Assembly: GCF_000300335.1 (NCBI RefSeq)
Contig: NZ_AMRM01000003.1
Coordinates: 1-64,000, forward strand
Direction: 5' to 3'
Length of the DNA stretch: 64,000 nucleotides
Origin: Nitratireductor pacificus pht-3B
GTDB lineage: Bacteria; Pseudomonadota; Alphaproteobacteria; Rhizobiales; Rhizobiaceae
The translations under genes were made by a program, and so were the position numbers. Shown here piece after piece: positions 24,738 through 27,019 of the stretch. The number at the start of each line of letters is the position of its first letter. Position 1 is the first letter of the stretch. Below the pieces are notes generated by a model. It did not search any database, had not been told where the DNA came from, and worked only from the letters and a program-made list of their open reading frames with translations.

Positions 24738-25928
24738 TTATCTGTCTACCTCACCAAACACGATGTCGAGGGAGCCAAGGACGGCGGAGACGTCGGCCAG
24801 GAGATGGCCGCGGCACAGGAAATCCATGGCCTGGAGATGCGCGAAGCCCGGCGCGCGCAGTTTGCAGCGGTAGGGCTTGTTGGACCCGTCGGAGACGAGA
24901 TAGACGCCGAACTCGCCCTTCGGCGCTTCGACGGCGGCATACACCTCGCCCTCAGGAACGCGATAGCCTTCCGTGTAGAGCTTGAAGTGATGGATCAGCG
25001 CTTCCATCGAGCGCTTCATCTGGCCGCGCTTGGGCGGAACGACCTTGCCGTCCATGTTGGAGACCGGACCGGTGCGCTGCGCGCCCAGAAGGCGATCGAC
25101 GCACTGGCGCATGATCTTCGCCGACTGGCGCATCTCTTCCATGCGGATCAGATAGCGGTCGTAGCAATCGCCGTTCTTGCCGATGGGGATGTCGAACTCC
25201 ATCTGCGGATAGCATTCGTAGGGCTGGCTCTTGCGCAGGTCCCAGGCCGCGCCCGAGCCGCGCACCATCACGCCGGAGAACCCCCAGGCCCAGGCGTCCT
25301 CCAGGCTGACGACGCCGATGTCGACGTTGCGCTGCTTGAAGATGCGGTTGCCGGTCAGGAGGTCGTCGAGGTTCTTCACCGTCACCAGGAACGGGTCGAT
25401 CCACTTGCCGATGTCCTCGACCAGATGGTCGGGAATGTCCTGATGGACGCCGCCGGGACGGAAATAGGCGGCGTGCATGCGCGCGCCGCAGGCGCGCTCA
25501 TAGAACACCATCAGCTTCTCGCGCTCCTCGAAGCCCCAGAGCGGCGGGGTCAGCGCGCCGACGTCCATCGCCTGCGTGGTGACATTGAGGAGATGCGACA
25601 GGATGCGGCCGATCTCGGAGAAGAGGACGCGGATCAACTGGCCGCGGATCGGCACTTCGATGTCCAGAAGCCGCTCGACAGCGAGCGCGAAGGCGTGCTC
25701 CTGGTTCATCGGCGCGACATAGTCGAGCCGGTCGAAATAGGGCACGGCCTGCAGGTAGGTCTTGGCCTCGATCAGCTTCTCGGTGCCGCGATGCAAAAGG
25801 CCGATATGCGGATCGACGCGCTCGACGACCTCGCCGTCCAGTTCCAGCACCAGACGCAGAACACCGTGCGCGGCCGGGTGCTGCGGGCCGAAATTGATGT
25901 TGAAGTTACGAACGGATGCTTCAGGCAT
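24738..25928 (-). CDS. nuoD: NADH-quinone oxidoreductase subunit D
   Basis: 396 residues, the 49-kDa subunit forming the quinone pocket with NuoB. Visible: [21 protein letters not shown] near the N-terminus with the two quinone-site histidines, [24 protein letters not shown], and the C-terminal [29 protein letters not shown]. It is normally followed upstream within a few bases by nuoC; here 479 bp intervene because of the four-helix-bundle insert. Confidence 0.97.
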
Positions 25929-25953
25929 GACGCATGGCCCCTTCGCGGCCAGA

Positions 25954-25981
25954 GCGAATAGCGAATAGCGAATAGCGAATA
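25954..25981. repeat. Heptamer array, left arm: 4 x GCGAATA
   Basis: Four perfect tandem heptamers, 26 bp upstream of the nuoD start on the minus strand. The reverse complement recurs at 26375-26402. Same length (28 bp) on both sides. Confidence 0.95.
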
Positions 25982-25994
25982 GAAAGCGATCCCA

Positions 25995-26363
25995 TCATGC
26001 CGATTTTTCCTGTAACCGCCGGATCATTGATCTAATCATCTTTCCAATCTCTTCGGCAGCCTGGAGCAAATCCTGCAGCCTGTTTTCTTCCAAGAAACTC
26101 AACCGCGACGCCAGCATCAGATGCGTCTCAAGCTCTTTTAGCGAACCCTGCGCAATGCGCAGAAACTGAACAAAGGGGCCGGTTAGTTTGCGACCATGCC
26201 CTTCGGCGATGTTCGCAGGTATCGAGCTCGCCGACCTTCGAATCTGGCTCGTAAGACCGTAGGTCTCTGAGGCAGGGAAGCCGCTAGTAGCGCGATAGCA
26301 CTCCGTCGCCAGATCCATCGCCGCTTTCCATACCAGAAGGTCCCGATACGAGTTGATCACCAA
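25995..26363 (-). CDS. Four-helix bundle protein (23S rRNA intervening-sequence/S23 family)
   Basis: About 122 residues; starts at TTG 26363 or GTG 26360, neither with a strong ribosome site. The family signature is clear: SYRDLLVWKAAMDLATECYR, FPASETYGLTSQIRRSASSI, PANIAEGHGR and a C-terminal helical pair. Members were first found in intervening sequences of 23S rRNA genes; relatives include the Avd accessory protein of diversity-generating retroelements, which binds nucleic acid. No role in complex I is known. It probably travels on the nuo mRNA between nuoC and nuoD. Function not assigned. Confidence 0.88.
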   Translation of the reverse strand: MVINSYRDLLVWKAAMDLATECYRATSGFPASETYGLTSQIRRSASSIPANIAEGHGRKLTGPFVQFLRIAQGSLKELETHLMLASRLSFLEENRLQDLLQAAEEIGKMIRSMIRRLQEKSA

Positions 26364-26374
26364 CCCCGCCCCTC

Positions 26375-26402
26375 TATTCGCTATTCGCTACTCCCTATTC
26401 GC
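26375..26402. repeat. Heptamer array, right arm: TATTCGC units
   Basis: Units 26375-26381, 26382-26388 and 26396-26402 are perfect TATTCGC; 26389-26395 (TACTCCC) is degenerate. Inverted relative to the left arm. It ends 5 bp before the nuoC stop codon. Confidence 0.93.
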
Positions 26403-26407
26403 TTCAT

Positions 26408-27010
26408 TCACTCTTTCGCCTTTTCATCGCCCGGCAGGACGTAATCCGTCCCTTCCCAGGGCGAGAGGAAATCGAAGTCGCGGAACTCCTGGCGCAGTTC
26501 GACCGGCTCGTAGACGACGCGCTTGGCGTCATCGTCGTAGCGCACCTCGACAAAGCCCGTCAGCGGAAAATCCTTGCGCAGCGGATGCCCCTCGAAGCCG
26601 TAGTCGGTCAGGATGCGGCGCAAGTCCGGATGGCCGGTGAAGAGTACGCCGTACAGATCGTAGATCTCGCGCTCGAACCAGTCGGAGGCCGGGAAGACCT
26701 CGACTGTCGAGGGGACCGGCGTGTCCTCGTCGGTCGACACCTTGACGCGTACCCGCTGGTTCTGGCGCGGCGACAGGAGGTGGTAGACCACCTCGAAACG
26801 CTTGGCGCGCGCCGGGTAGTCGGCGCCCGAAATATCGATGAAGGCGTAGAACTGGCACTGCACGTCGTTCTTCAGAAAGGTCAGGACATCGACGATGTCG
26901 CCCGGCTCGACCAGGAAGGTCAGTTCGCCGTAAGCAACGACCGCATCCTGAATCTGCGCGTCGAGCTTTTCCGTGACGTAGGCCGCCAGGTCCTTCAGCG
27001 CTTCGCTCAT
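26408..27010 (-). CDS. nuoC: NADH-quinone oxidoreductase subunit C
   Basis: 200 residues from ATG 27010 (GAGGCGA six bases upstream; an ATG three bases earlier is possible). The 30-kDa subunit connecting NuoB, NuoD and NuoI; no cofactor. Family signature [22 protein letters not shown] is present at about 125-145, with [18 protein letters not shown] after it. Separate from NuoD, unlike the fused NuoCD of E. coli. The stop is 6 bp from the heptamer array of the insertion. Confidence 0.96.
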
Positions 27011-27019
27011 CATTCGCCT

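Follow-up and report, generated by a model that had tools for sequence, protein, structure and literature searches.

What is a small gene, boxed by inverted arrays of a seven-base repeat, doing between nuoC and nuoD in Nitratireductor pacificus pht-3B? The locus lies in a 64,000-nucleotide stretch of contig NZ_AMRM01000003.1 (the window), where a 449-bp block with an S23, or four-helix-bundle, gene on the same strand as the nuo operon separates nuoC from nuoD. Sequence comparison shows this block to be a copy of an element that is very widespread in bacteria and consists of a gene between inverted repeats of seven bases. The same comparison establishes the association of gene and arrays, the matching of repeat unit and protein, the dispersal of gene-less hairpins, the reuse of junctions and the existence of empty sites. 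This makes it probable that the element represents a transposase-less repeat system in which S23 recognizes its own heptad hairpin, and of which the intervening sequences of 23S rRNA are special cases.

On the nuo coding strand, the nuoC stop codon is followed, after a gap of four bases, by the array AGCGAATAGGGAGTAGCGAATAGCGAATAG, the 122-codon S23 gene, the inverse array CTATTCG x 4.3 and nuoD. Read on the + strand, the arrays are AGCGAAT x 4.3 with zero mismatches (25953-25982) and CTATTCG x 4.3 with one degenerate unit, TACTCCC (26374-26403). The two arms, of 31 nt, are 94% complementary with a spacing of 389 nt. The RNA fold computed for the block has an energy of -205.5 kcal/mol (z = -5.4, with 0 of 100 shuffles equally stable), and both arrays are paired in it. 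The 122-residue protein matches PF05635 (E 2.9e-38; 130.8 bits with a cut-off of 33.8), TIGR02436 (129.6 bits with a cut-off of 24) and NF008911. Its gene is the sole open reading frame (ORF) of at least 70 residues inside the arms, so that the transposase association of an insertion sequence or a miniature inverted-repeat transposable element was not found. As in rRNA intervening sequences, an S23 ORF lies between terminal inverted repeats with a stem of approximately 28 bp. The original prediction, made from the sequence alone, had proposed an S23 gene bounded by four GCGAATA units on one side and four TATTCGC units on the other, arms that may fold together in the transcript and so bring nuoC and nuoD close, and a kinship with the genes of rRNA intervening sequences. 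The arrays, the ORF and the profile match were all verified, the pairing is present in the computed fold, and the kinship is real, on the basis of PF05635 and of the element described in the relevant sections of PMC4990558. A search for known Rfam RNAs at 25700-26700 gave 0 matches to E 1.

The association is general. PF05635 was searched in 394 genomes of the host's bacterial family and S23 was present in 116; 131 of the 148 matching rows were fetched (the 17 lowest-scoring were left out), and we added 80 named loci on contigs in GTDB, taking the best 80 among 507 relatives. The 211 loci were reduced to 190 by dropping 4 that were cut by contig ends and 17 duplicates. We determined the period that best fitted both 200-bp flanks jointly, using Markov-shuffled flanks and windows 800-1000 bp away as controls. 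This period was 7 (132 loci), 14 (21 loci) or 8 (34 loci) at 187 of the 190 S23 loci. A joint score of at least 16 was reached with period 7 at 138 loci and with period 8 at 32, compared with 0 and 1, respectively, of 190 shuffled controls and 0 of 180 displaced windows. The arms matched each other in inverted orientation (score of at least 12) at 168 of 190 loci, compared with 43 of 190 pairs with exchanged partners, 3 of 190 shuffled controls and 2 of 180 displaced windows. A chance origin of the arrays is rejected by the shuffled and displaced controls and by counts in the own genome, where GCGAATAGCGAATAG has 18 matches and its reversed spelling 0. With a score of at least 8, there are 45 distinct units, 23 of which occur in at least two loci. 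Octamer arrays belong mostly to one S23 clade; separately, octamer units reading TAGTGAGA (L215, L218) arise within the heptamer TAGTGAG clade, as an independent change in unit length.

A further set of genomes was chosen by way of 14 loci that are not rhizobial, from Acidobacteria, Planctomycetes, Bacteroidetes, Gemmatimonadetes, Rubrobacter, Hormoscilla and a Sphingomonas. The genomes reached through these loci harbor 30 S23 loci, of which 13 had been counted already. Among the 17 new loci, period 7 or 8 was the best in 16, the joint score was at least 16 in 12, and the inverted match was at least 12 in 16; the corresponding numbers for 15 displaced windows were 2, 0 and 1. The arrangement recurs in Acidobacteria, Planctomycetes, Bacteroidetes and Cyanobacteria. 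It is also present on plasmids: 12 loci were fetched from 40 matching records, mostly cyanobacterial, and the inverted match was at least 12 in 9, with weak arrays at 4 of the 12 (L330-L333). The idea of a phage gene is rejected: S23 was found in 0 of 50,697 phage records, and a scan of contigs from viruses gave just 4 loci. G414 and G416, two genomes found by way of acidobacterial loci, have 23 and 19 PF05635 matches, far above the numbers in rhizobia.

Dozens of units occur, and the loci compared indicate that the unit goes with the S23 protein and not with location or host. In this comparison, which left out 6 of 128 loci without a clear unit and in which pairs are not independent, S23 proteins at a distance of 0.2-0.35 had the same unit or one change off in 260 of 460 pairs from one location and in 168 of 289 pairs from different locations. 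At a distance of at least 0.5, these fractions fell to 0 of 260 and 6 of 755. For the 58 nuo loci, the unit correlated with S23 (0.42) and hardly with NuoD (0.09), and S23 hardly with NuoD (0.11); the partial correlation of unit and S23 given NuoD was 0.42 (p 0.001) and that of unit and NuoD given S23 was 0.05. Since the unit tracks S23 while NuoD hardly correlates with either, the element comes and goes at nuoC-nuoD largely independently of the host, carrying its unit with it.

Of the 131 family loci, 65 lie between nuoC and nuoD, 28 between the genes for glutamine synthetase and a flavin adenine dinucleotide (FAD) oxidoreductase, and 27 between those for a circularly permuted ATP-grasp protein and an Alpha-E protein, with a few assigned to their junction from one flank alone. 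The remainder are found at two minor junctions (5 and 2 loci) and at four single places. With 65 of 131 loci, from several S23 clades, at nuoC-nuoD, the insertion there is no odd single case, which corrects the view of the original prediction that an insertion in an essential respiratory operon is unexpected. Recurrence at the same operon junctions, gene-less hairpins in core operons, and the lack of solo arrays over 150 kb of a plasmid from Nostoc that carries two S23 genes would all agree with S23 being an ordinary host regulator, the arrays being its sites on mRNA, made by slippage and maintained by selection, without mobility beyond rare gene transfer. We consider this unlikely. S23 and NuoD distances are almost uncorrelated, the gene is patchily present in the family (116 of 394 genomes), one genome harbors two sister copies (L165, L198), and the S23 tree, which is based on 116 columns and poorly resolved, requires at least 13 changes of location, together with at least 3 of period and at least 47 of unit.

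Empty sites between closely related flanks also argue against a resident regulator. Among ten congeneric genomes, S23 is found at nuoC-nuoD in six and a short junction without S23 in three (G002, G003, G009), to which the reading of an empty junction applies; the tenth, G001, has no S23 match. On plasmids, S23 lies between cas10 and cmr3 in Picosynechococcus 7003 and is absent in 7002 (flanks 90.5%); it lies between a TraM-like gene and its neighbor in Nostoc C052 and N. edaphicum and is absent in Nostoc C057 (95%), with a gene-less hairpin in the same spot in Nostoc ATCC 53789 (87%); and it lies between nrdB and nrdA in N. edaphicum and is absent in Calothrix NIES-4105 (85%). Between cas6 and cas4, Anabaena 90 has S23 and Dolichospermum (98.8%) has a different hairpin. 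The empty sites that the original prediction had asked for thus exist, and the block behaves like the transposase-less mobile cassette it had suggested, being patchy at its junction in the ten genomes; the overall interpretation is partly supported.

Two kinds of S23 share nuoC-nuoD within the genus, with identities to the window protein of 56-58% (G007/G008) and 78-86% (G004/5/6), and the arrays there read AGCGAATA or GTGAATR. Different clades at one junction in one genus (G000/4/5/6 and G007/8, with G008 outside the S23 tree) are what would be expected if the nuoC-nuoD elements were alleles that species exchange when nuoC and nuoD recombine homologously, without movement of their own. This seems rather improbable, as it leaves unexplained the related S23 genes at other junctions (J3, J4, J5 and the single places), the matching gene-less hairpins elsewhere and the three unit types found at atpD-atpC.

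These gene-less, or solo, hairpins are found in the own genome, which has a single S23 match and five more places with arrays, all without S23, a situation that the original prediction had not foreseen. All are hairpins with the units 5' and their complement 3' of a short loop (inverted-match scores of 9-20), and some contain degenerate units. The sucD-sucA and atpD-atpC junctions have one each. Matches to GNGAATRGNGAATRG, counted with overlapping matches inside one array, number 24, 25, 14, 18, 68 and 26 in the six congeneric genomes with S23 and 4, 1, 0 and 0 in the four that lack it, with 0 matches to the reversed control in each of the ten. In the 394 family genomes, solo TAGCGAA arrays were found in 45 of 116 genomes with S23 and 15 of 278 others (odds ratio 11), and 29 of 116 and 9 of 278, respectively, had solo arrays of TAGGCAG (odds ratio 10), in statistics that ignore ancestry and count two units out of many. 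TAGGCAG arrays were more frequent in genomes with a TAGGCAG-type S23 (16 of 21) than in those with a TAGCGAA-type S23 (4 of 25; p 6.7e-5), 9 of the 116 S23 genomes being untyped in this comparison. The reversed control for TAGCGAA matched in 0 of 394 genomes.

An inverted partner arm was present at 23 of 27 array sites inspected in four genomes. Operon junctions where gene-less hairpins of the S23 units lie are atpD-atpC, sucD-sucA and rpsM-rpsK. By eye, atpD-atpC has GCGAATA-type arrays in G000, G004, G005 and G006, GTGAATG-type in G007 and G017, and octamer-like in G016, so that one junction harbors three unit types, with no arrays in G001, G002, G003, G008, G009, G011 and G012. At rpsM-rpsK, arrays are GTGAATG-type in G004 and GCGAATA-type in G005 and G006. 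Arrays without the gene, which the original prediction had named as refuting evidence, do therefore occur. Because 23 of 27 are matching hairpins, and because the two units counted are strongly enriched in S23 genomes, they extend the idea and do not refute it. A one-armed heptad array was also recognized by eye in G006 (L261, 773-801), seemingly near a 5S rRNA gene.

The predicted model of S23 has four helices (mean pLDDT, the predicted local distance difference test, of 95.4), including helices 31-56 and 61-87. Its closest structures are 2gsc (template modeling [TM] score of 0.85-0.90) and 2rld (0.77-0.81), and the fold is thus predicted to be that of the family; both crystal entries contain five chains. 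The next-nearest fold is that of Avd, 4dwl (TM up to 0.80), followed by the complex of a diversity-generating retroelement, 8ube (0.77), and the model would accordingly place S23 among four-helix bundles of the Avd fold, without an enzyme domain. Avd has a reverse transcriptase as its partner, along with template and variable repeats, whereas the likeness of S23 is, as far as tested, in the predicted fold only. The likeness of PF05635 to Avd is noted in part of PMC10053308. This raises the possibility that S23 is an accessory protein of a reverse transcriptase and that the hairpins are retro-copied, for which the sequence matches to bAvd (30.3 bits) and DivGenRetAVD (24.8 bits) also speak. These are below the curated cut-offs of 40 and 80, respectively, and we regard this candidate, like allele exchange, as having a low probability.

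Writing the unit as T1 A2 G3 C4 G5 A6 A7, we ranked 86 variable S23 columns by covariation with the unit, and found residue 64 first (0.57) and residue 56 second (0.47), with the next at 0.38 and a median of 0.10. In the model, these two residues fall where helix 2 ends and helix 3 begins, next to the NIAEG.GR motif, which does not vary among the 36 S23 proteins aligned. F64 occurs with G5 in 55 of 61 loci and Y64 with C5 in 25 of 29; H56 occurs with C4 in 26 of 29 and F56 with T4 in 15 of 15, and Y56 (45 loci) is found with G4 in 27, T4 in 17 and C4 in 1. In a tree-aware simulation of neutral traits, which, like the contrasts described below, left out 20 of 154 period-7 loci in which the unit, register or motif was unclear, the observed correlation was reached in 0 of 3000 runs for Y64-C5 and H56-C4 (p 0.0003 each) and in about 0.4% of simulated traits for F56-T4 (p 0.004). 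Among named loci outside the family set, T(A/G)GCGA(A/G) was the unit in 29 of 33 with H56/F64, a GTGAA unit was present in 7 of 7 with F56/F64, and three of the four H56/F64 exceptions have units known from non-alphaproteobacterial loci. Since the sequence of the repeat changes with specific residues of S23, these results suggest that S23 reads its repeat, although the residue code holds mainly in Alphaproteobacteria and not widely.

The reading that S23 recognizes its hairpin and spreads with it has several observations standing against it. At junction J3, close S23 pairs (0.2-0.35) share the unit in just 31 of 119. Within a locus, the two arms show no better a match than arms from relatives sharing the unit (p 0.55), and because of this, copying from arm to arm is unsupported. 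Besides the limits of the solo-array statistics given above, solo TAGCGAA arrays fail to separate S23 types (16 of 25 TAGCGAA-type and 9 of 21 TAGGCAG-type genomes; p 0.23), and the reversed control for TAGGCAG matched in 2 of 394 genomes (1 and 3 matches). Arrays are abundant in two genomes without a PF05635 match (36 TAGCGAA matches in G395 and 47 TAGGCAG matches in G278), and solo arrays of either unit are absent from the 150 kb of Nostoc plasmid pNe_5. Among 14 named H56/Y64 loci, C5 is found in 4 and C4 in none, in the register used; controls in which the residue-base pairings were swapped show correlations too, though weaker ones (phi -0.48 and -0.40; p 0.002 and 0.035); and independent contrasts on well-supported branches gave 3 pairs and no significance. 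By eye, no target-site duplication was seen at the four plasmid comparisons of filled and empty sites or at atpD-atpC, where host bases are replaced. As for G395 and G278, S23 may have been lost or missed there, or another carrier may exist.

With these points weighed, we still favor a two-part system of S23 protein and cognate palindrome, of which the block would be a gene-bearing copy. The palindrome would consist of two inverted arrays of about four heptamer units each (octamer units in one main clade). An oligomer of S23 may bind the purine-rich arm as a single strand, with about one unit per subunit, and the alpha2-alpha3 turn may read unit bases 4-5. Binding could take place on a hairpin in RNA or in exposed single-stranded DNA, where it would protect the hairpin and favor its copying into other intergenic hairpin positions, resulting in autonomous (gene-bearing) and non-autonomous (gene-less) copies. 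The candidates for the copying are strand switching at hairpins during host replication and a reverse transcriptase that acts in trans. The S23 of the window is predicted to prefer single strands or hairpins of AGCGAATAGCGAATAG over those of GTGAATG or shuffled units, and pairing of the arms in nuo mRNA is expected to give a stem of approximately 30 bp that carries the S23 message, as in 23S rRNA intervening sequences. The features concerned are listed in Table 1.

TABLE 1 Features of the S23 block and its nuo flanks, with positions counted in the window
Feature	Position	Strand	Basis or description
nuoC (Complex1_30kDa), upstream flank	26408..27013	-	ORF and profile match
5' arm of the element on the coding strand	26374..26403	-	Inverted heptad array reading AGCGAATAGGGAGTAGCGAATAGCGAATAG; 4.3 units, one degenerate
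Codons of residues 49-64 (PANIAEG.GR motif and start of helix 3; predicted alpha2-alpha3 turn)	26172..26219	-	Covariation, helices
S23 / 23S_rRNA_IVP four-helix-bundle gene, 122 aa	25995..26363	-	ORF, PF05635, TIGR02436, NF008911, predicted fold
3' arm of the element on the coding strand	25953..25982	-	Reads CTATTCGCTATTCGCTATTCGCTATTCGCT; 4.3 perfect units
nuoD (Complex1_49kDa), downstream flank	24738..25928	-	ORF and profile match

Among known systems, repetitive extragenic palindromic (REP) sequences and their RAYT (TnpA-REP) transposases likewise pair palindromes scattered between genes with a protein whose gene is carried by one of the copies. In the present system, too, dispersed intergenic palindromes cognate to a gene-bearing copy are present, the cognate type being significant for one of the two units counted. 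S23 differs in being a predicted four-helix bundle without an enzyme domain, and the arms differ in being tandem heptads of changing sequence. That a Y1 (IS200/RAYT-type) transposase moves REP-like hairpins in trans with S23 as a passenger, as the single polarity of the dispersed palindromes might suggest, is very improbable and, for the genus, largely refuted, as PF01797 has no match at E <= 0.001 in ten congeneric genomes, six of which carry S23 and many arrays, in a search that was positive in 5 of 14 control genomes, and as one would not expect the unit to be dictated by a passenger.

Another close system is the rRNA intervening sequence. The Coxiella 23S rRNA element has a 28-bp terminal stem, tandem heptamers and S23 (PMC4990558); its heptamers, GACAGAT, lie just upstream of the ORF and differ in number between strains. 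That element sits in helix 45 of 23S rRNA, whereas the window element lies between nuoC and nuoD, and the sections of PMC4990558 that describe it mention neither heptamers as a general partner of S23 nor dispersed gene-less copies. These sections call the function and origin of rRNA intervening sequences unclear. Heptanucleotide repeats are known from several phyla: GGGAATC in Xanthomonas and GGGGA(C/T)T in Nostoc PCC 7120 (PMC4692102), and TAACTGA in Beggiatoaceae (PMC4679880). As described there, they resemble S23 arrays in being heptamers, mostly intergenic and variable in number; X. campestris has 186 sets of GGGAATC arrays, 70 cases being inverted pairs, with four units favored. The terms "s23" and "four helix" have 0 occurrences in the main texts of these two articles. 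X. campestris is also the source of the S23 crystal structure 2gsc (XCC0516). In the portions consulted, PMC6749651 mentions heptamer-derived satellites and PMC10910872 names the S23 family solely in a figure legend. In the literature searched, which did not include preprints and most subscription journals, we recognized no description of heptamer arrays as a general partner of S23 genes; an earlier description is possible.

A broader statement has, in our judgment, about even chances of being correct: that free-standing S23 proteins are sequence-specific readers of tandem-heptad hairpins, with a heptad for each clade (determined in Alphaproteobacteria largely by residues 56 and 64); that the pair spreads via operon junctions without a transposase; that many heptanucleotide repeats, such as those of Xanthomonas, Nostoc and Beggiatoaceae, are its footprints; and that the intervening sequences of rRNA stem from copies inserted into rRNA hairpins. 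S23 crystal structures of 2006-2007 are still titled "conserved hypothetical" or of "unknown function." One arrangement would link this family, the heptanucleotide repeats left unexplained in the accounts of PMC4679880 and PMC4692102, and the function and origin of the intervening sequences discussed in PMC4990558. If the reading is true, S23 would be a compact protein with a nucleic acid target partly predictable from two residues, and if the copies move, they would form a class of mobile repeats without a nuclease of its own.

Some observations concern neighboring subjects. S23 elements lie within CRISPR-cas operons of cyanobacterial plasmids, at cas6-cas4 (L324, L327) and cas10-cmr3 (L329). 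For this reason, a "four helix bundle protein" annotated by cas genes may reflect insertion and not a CRISPR function. The hairpin at cas6-cas4 in Dolichospermum (L337, 838-1084) belongs by eye to another repeat family, with a hairpin-like arrangement of GTAGGTTGGGTTGACGC and its inverse. At its very start, the window also contains a 27-bp tandem repeat in 5.6 copies (positions 2-153).
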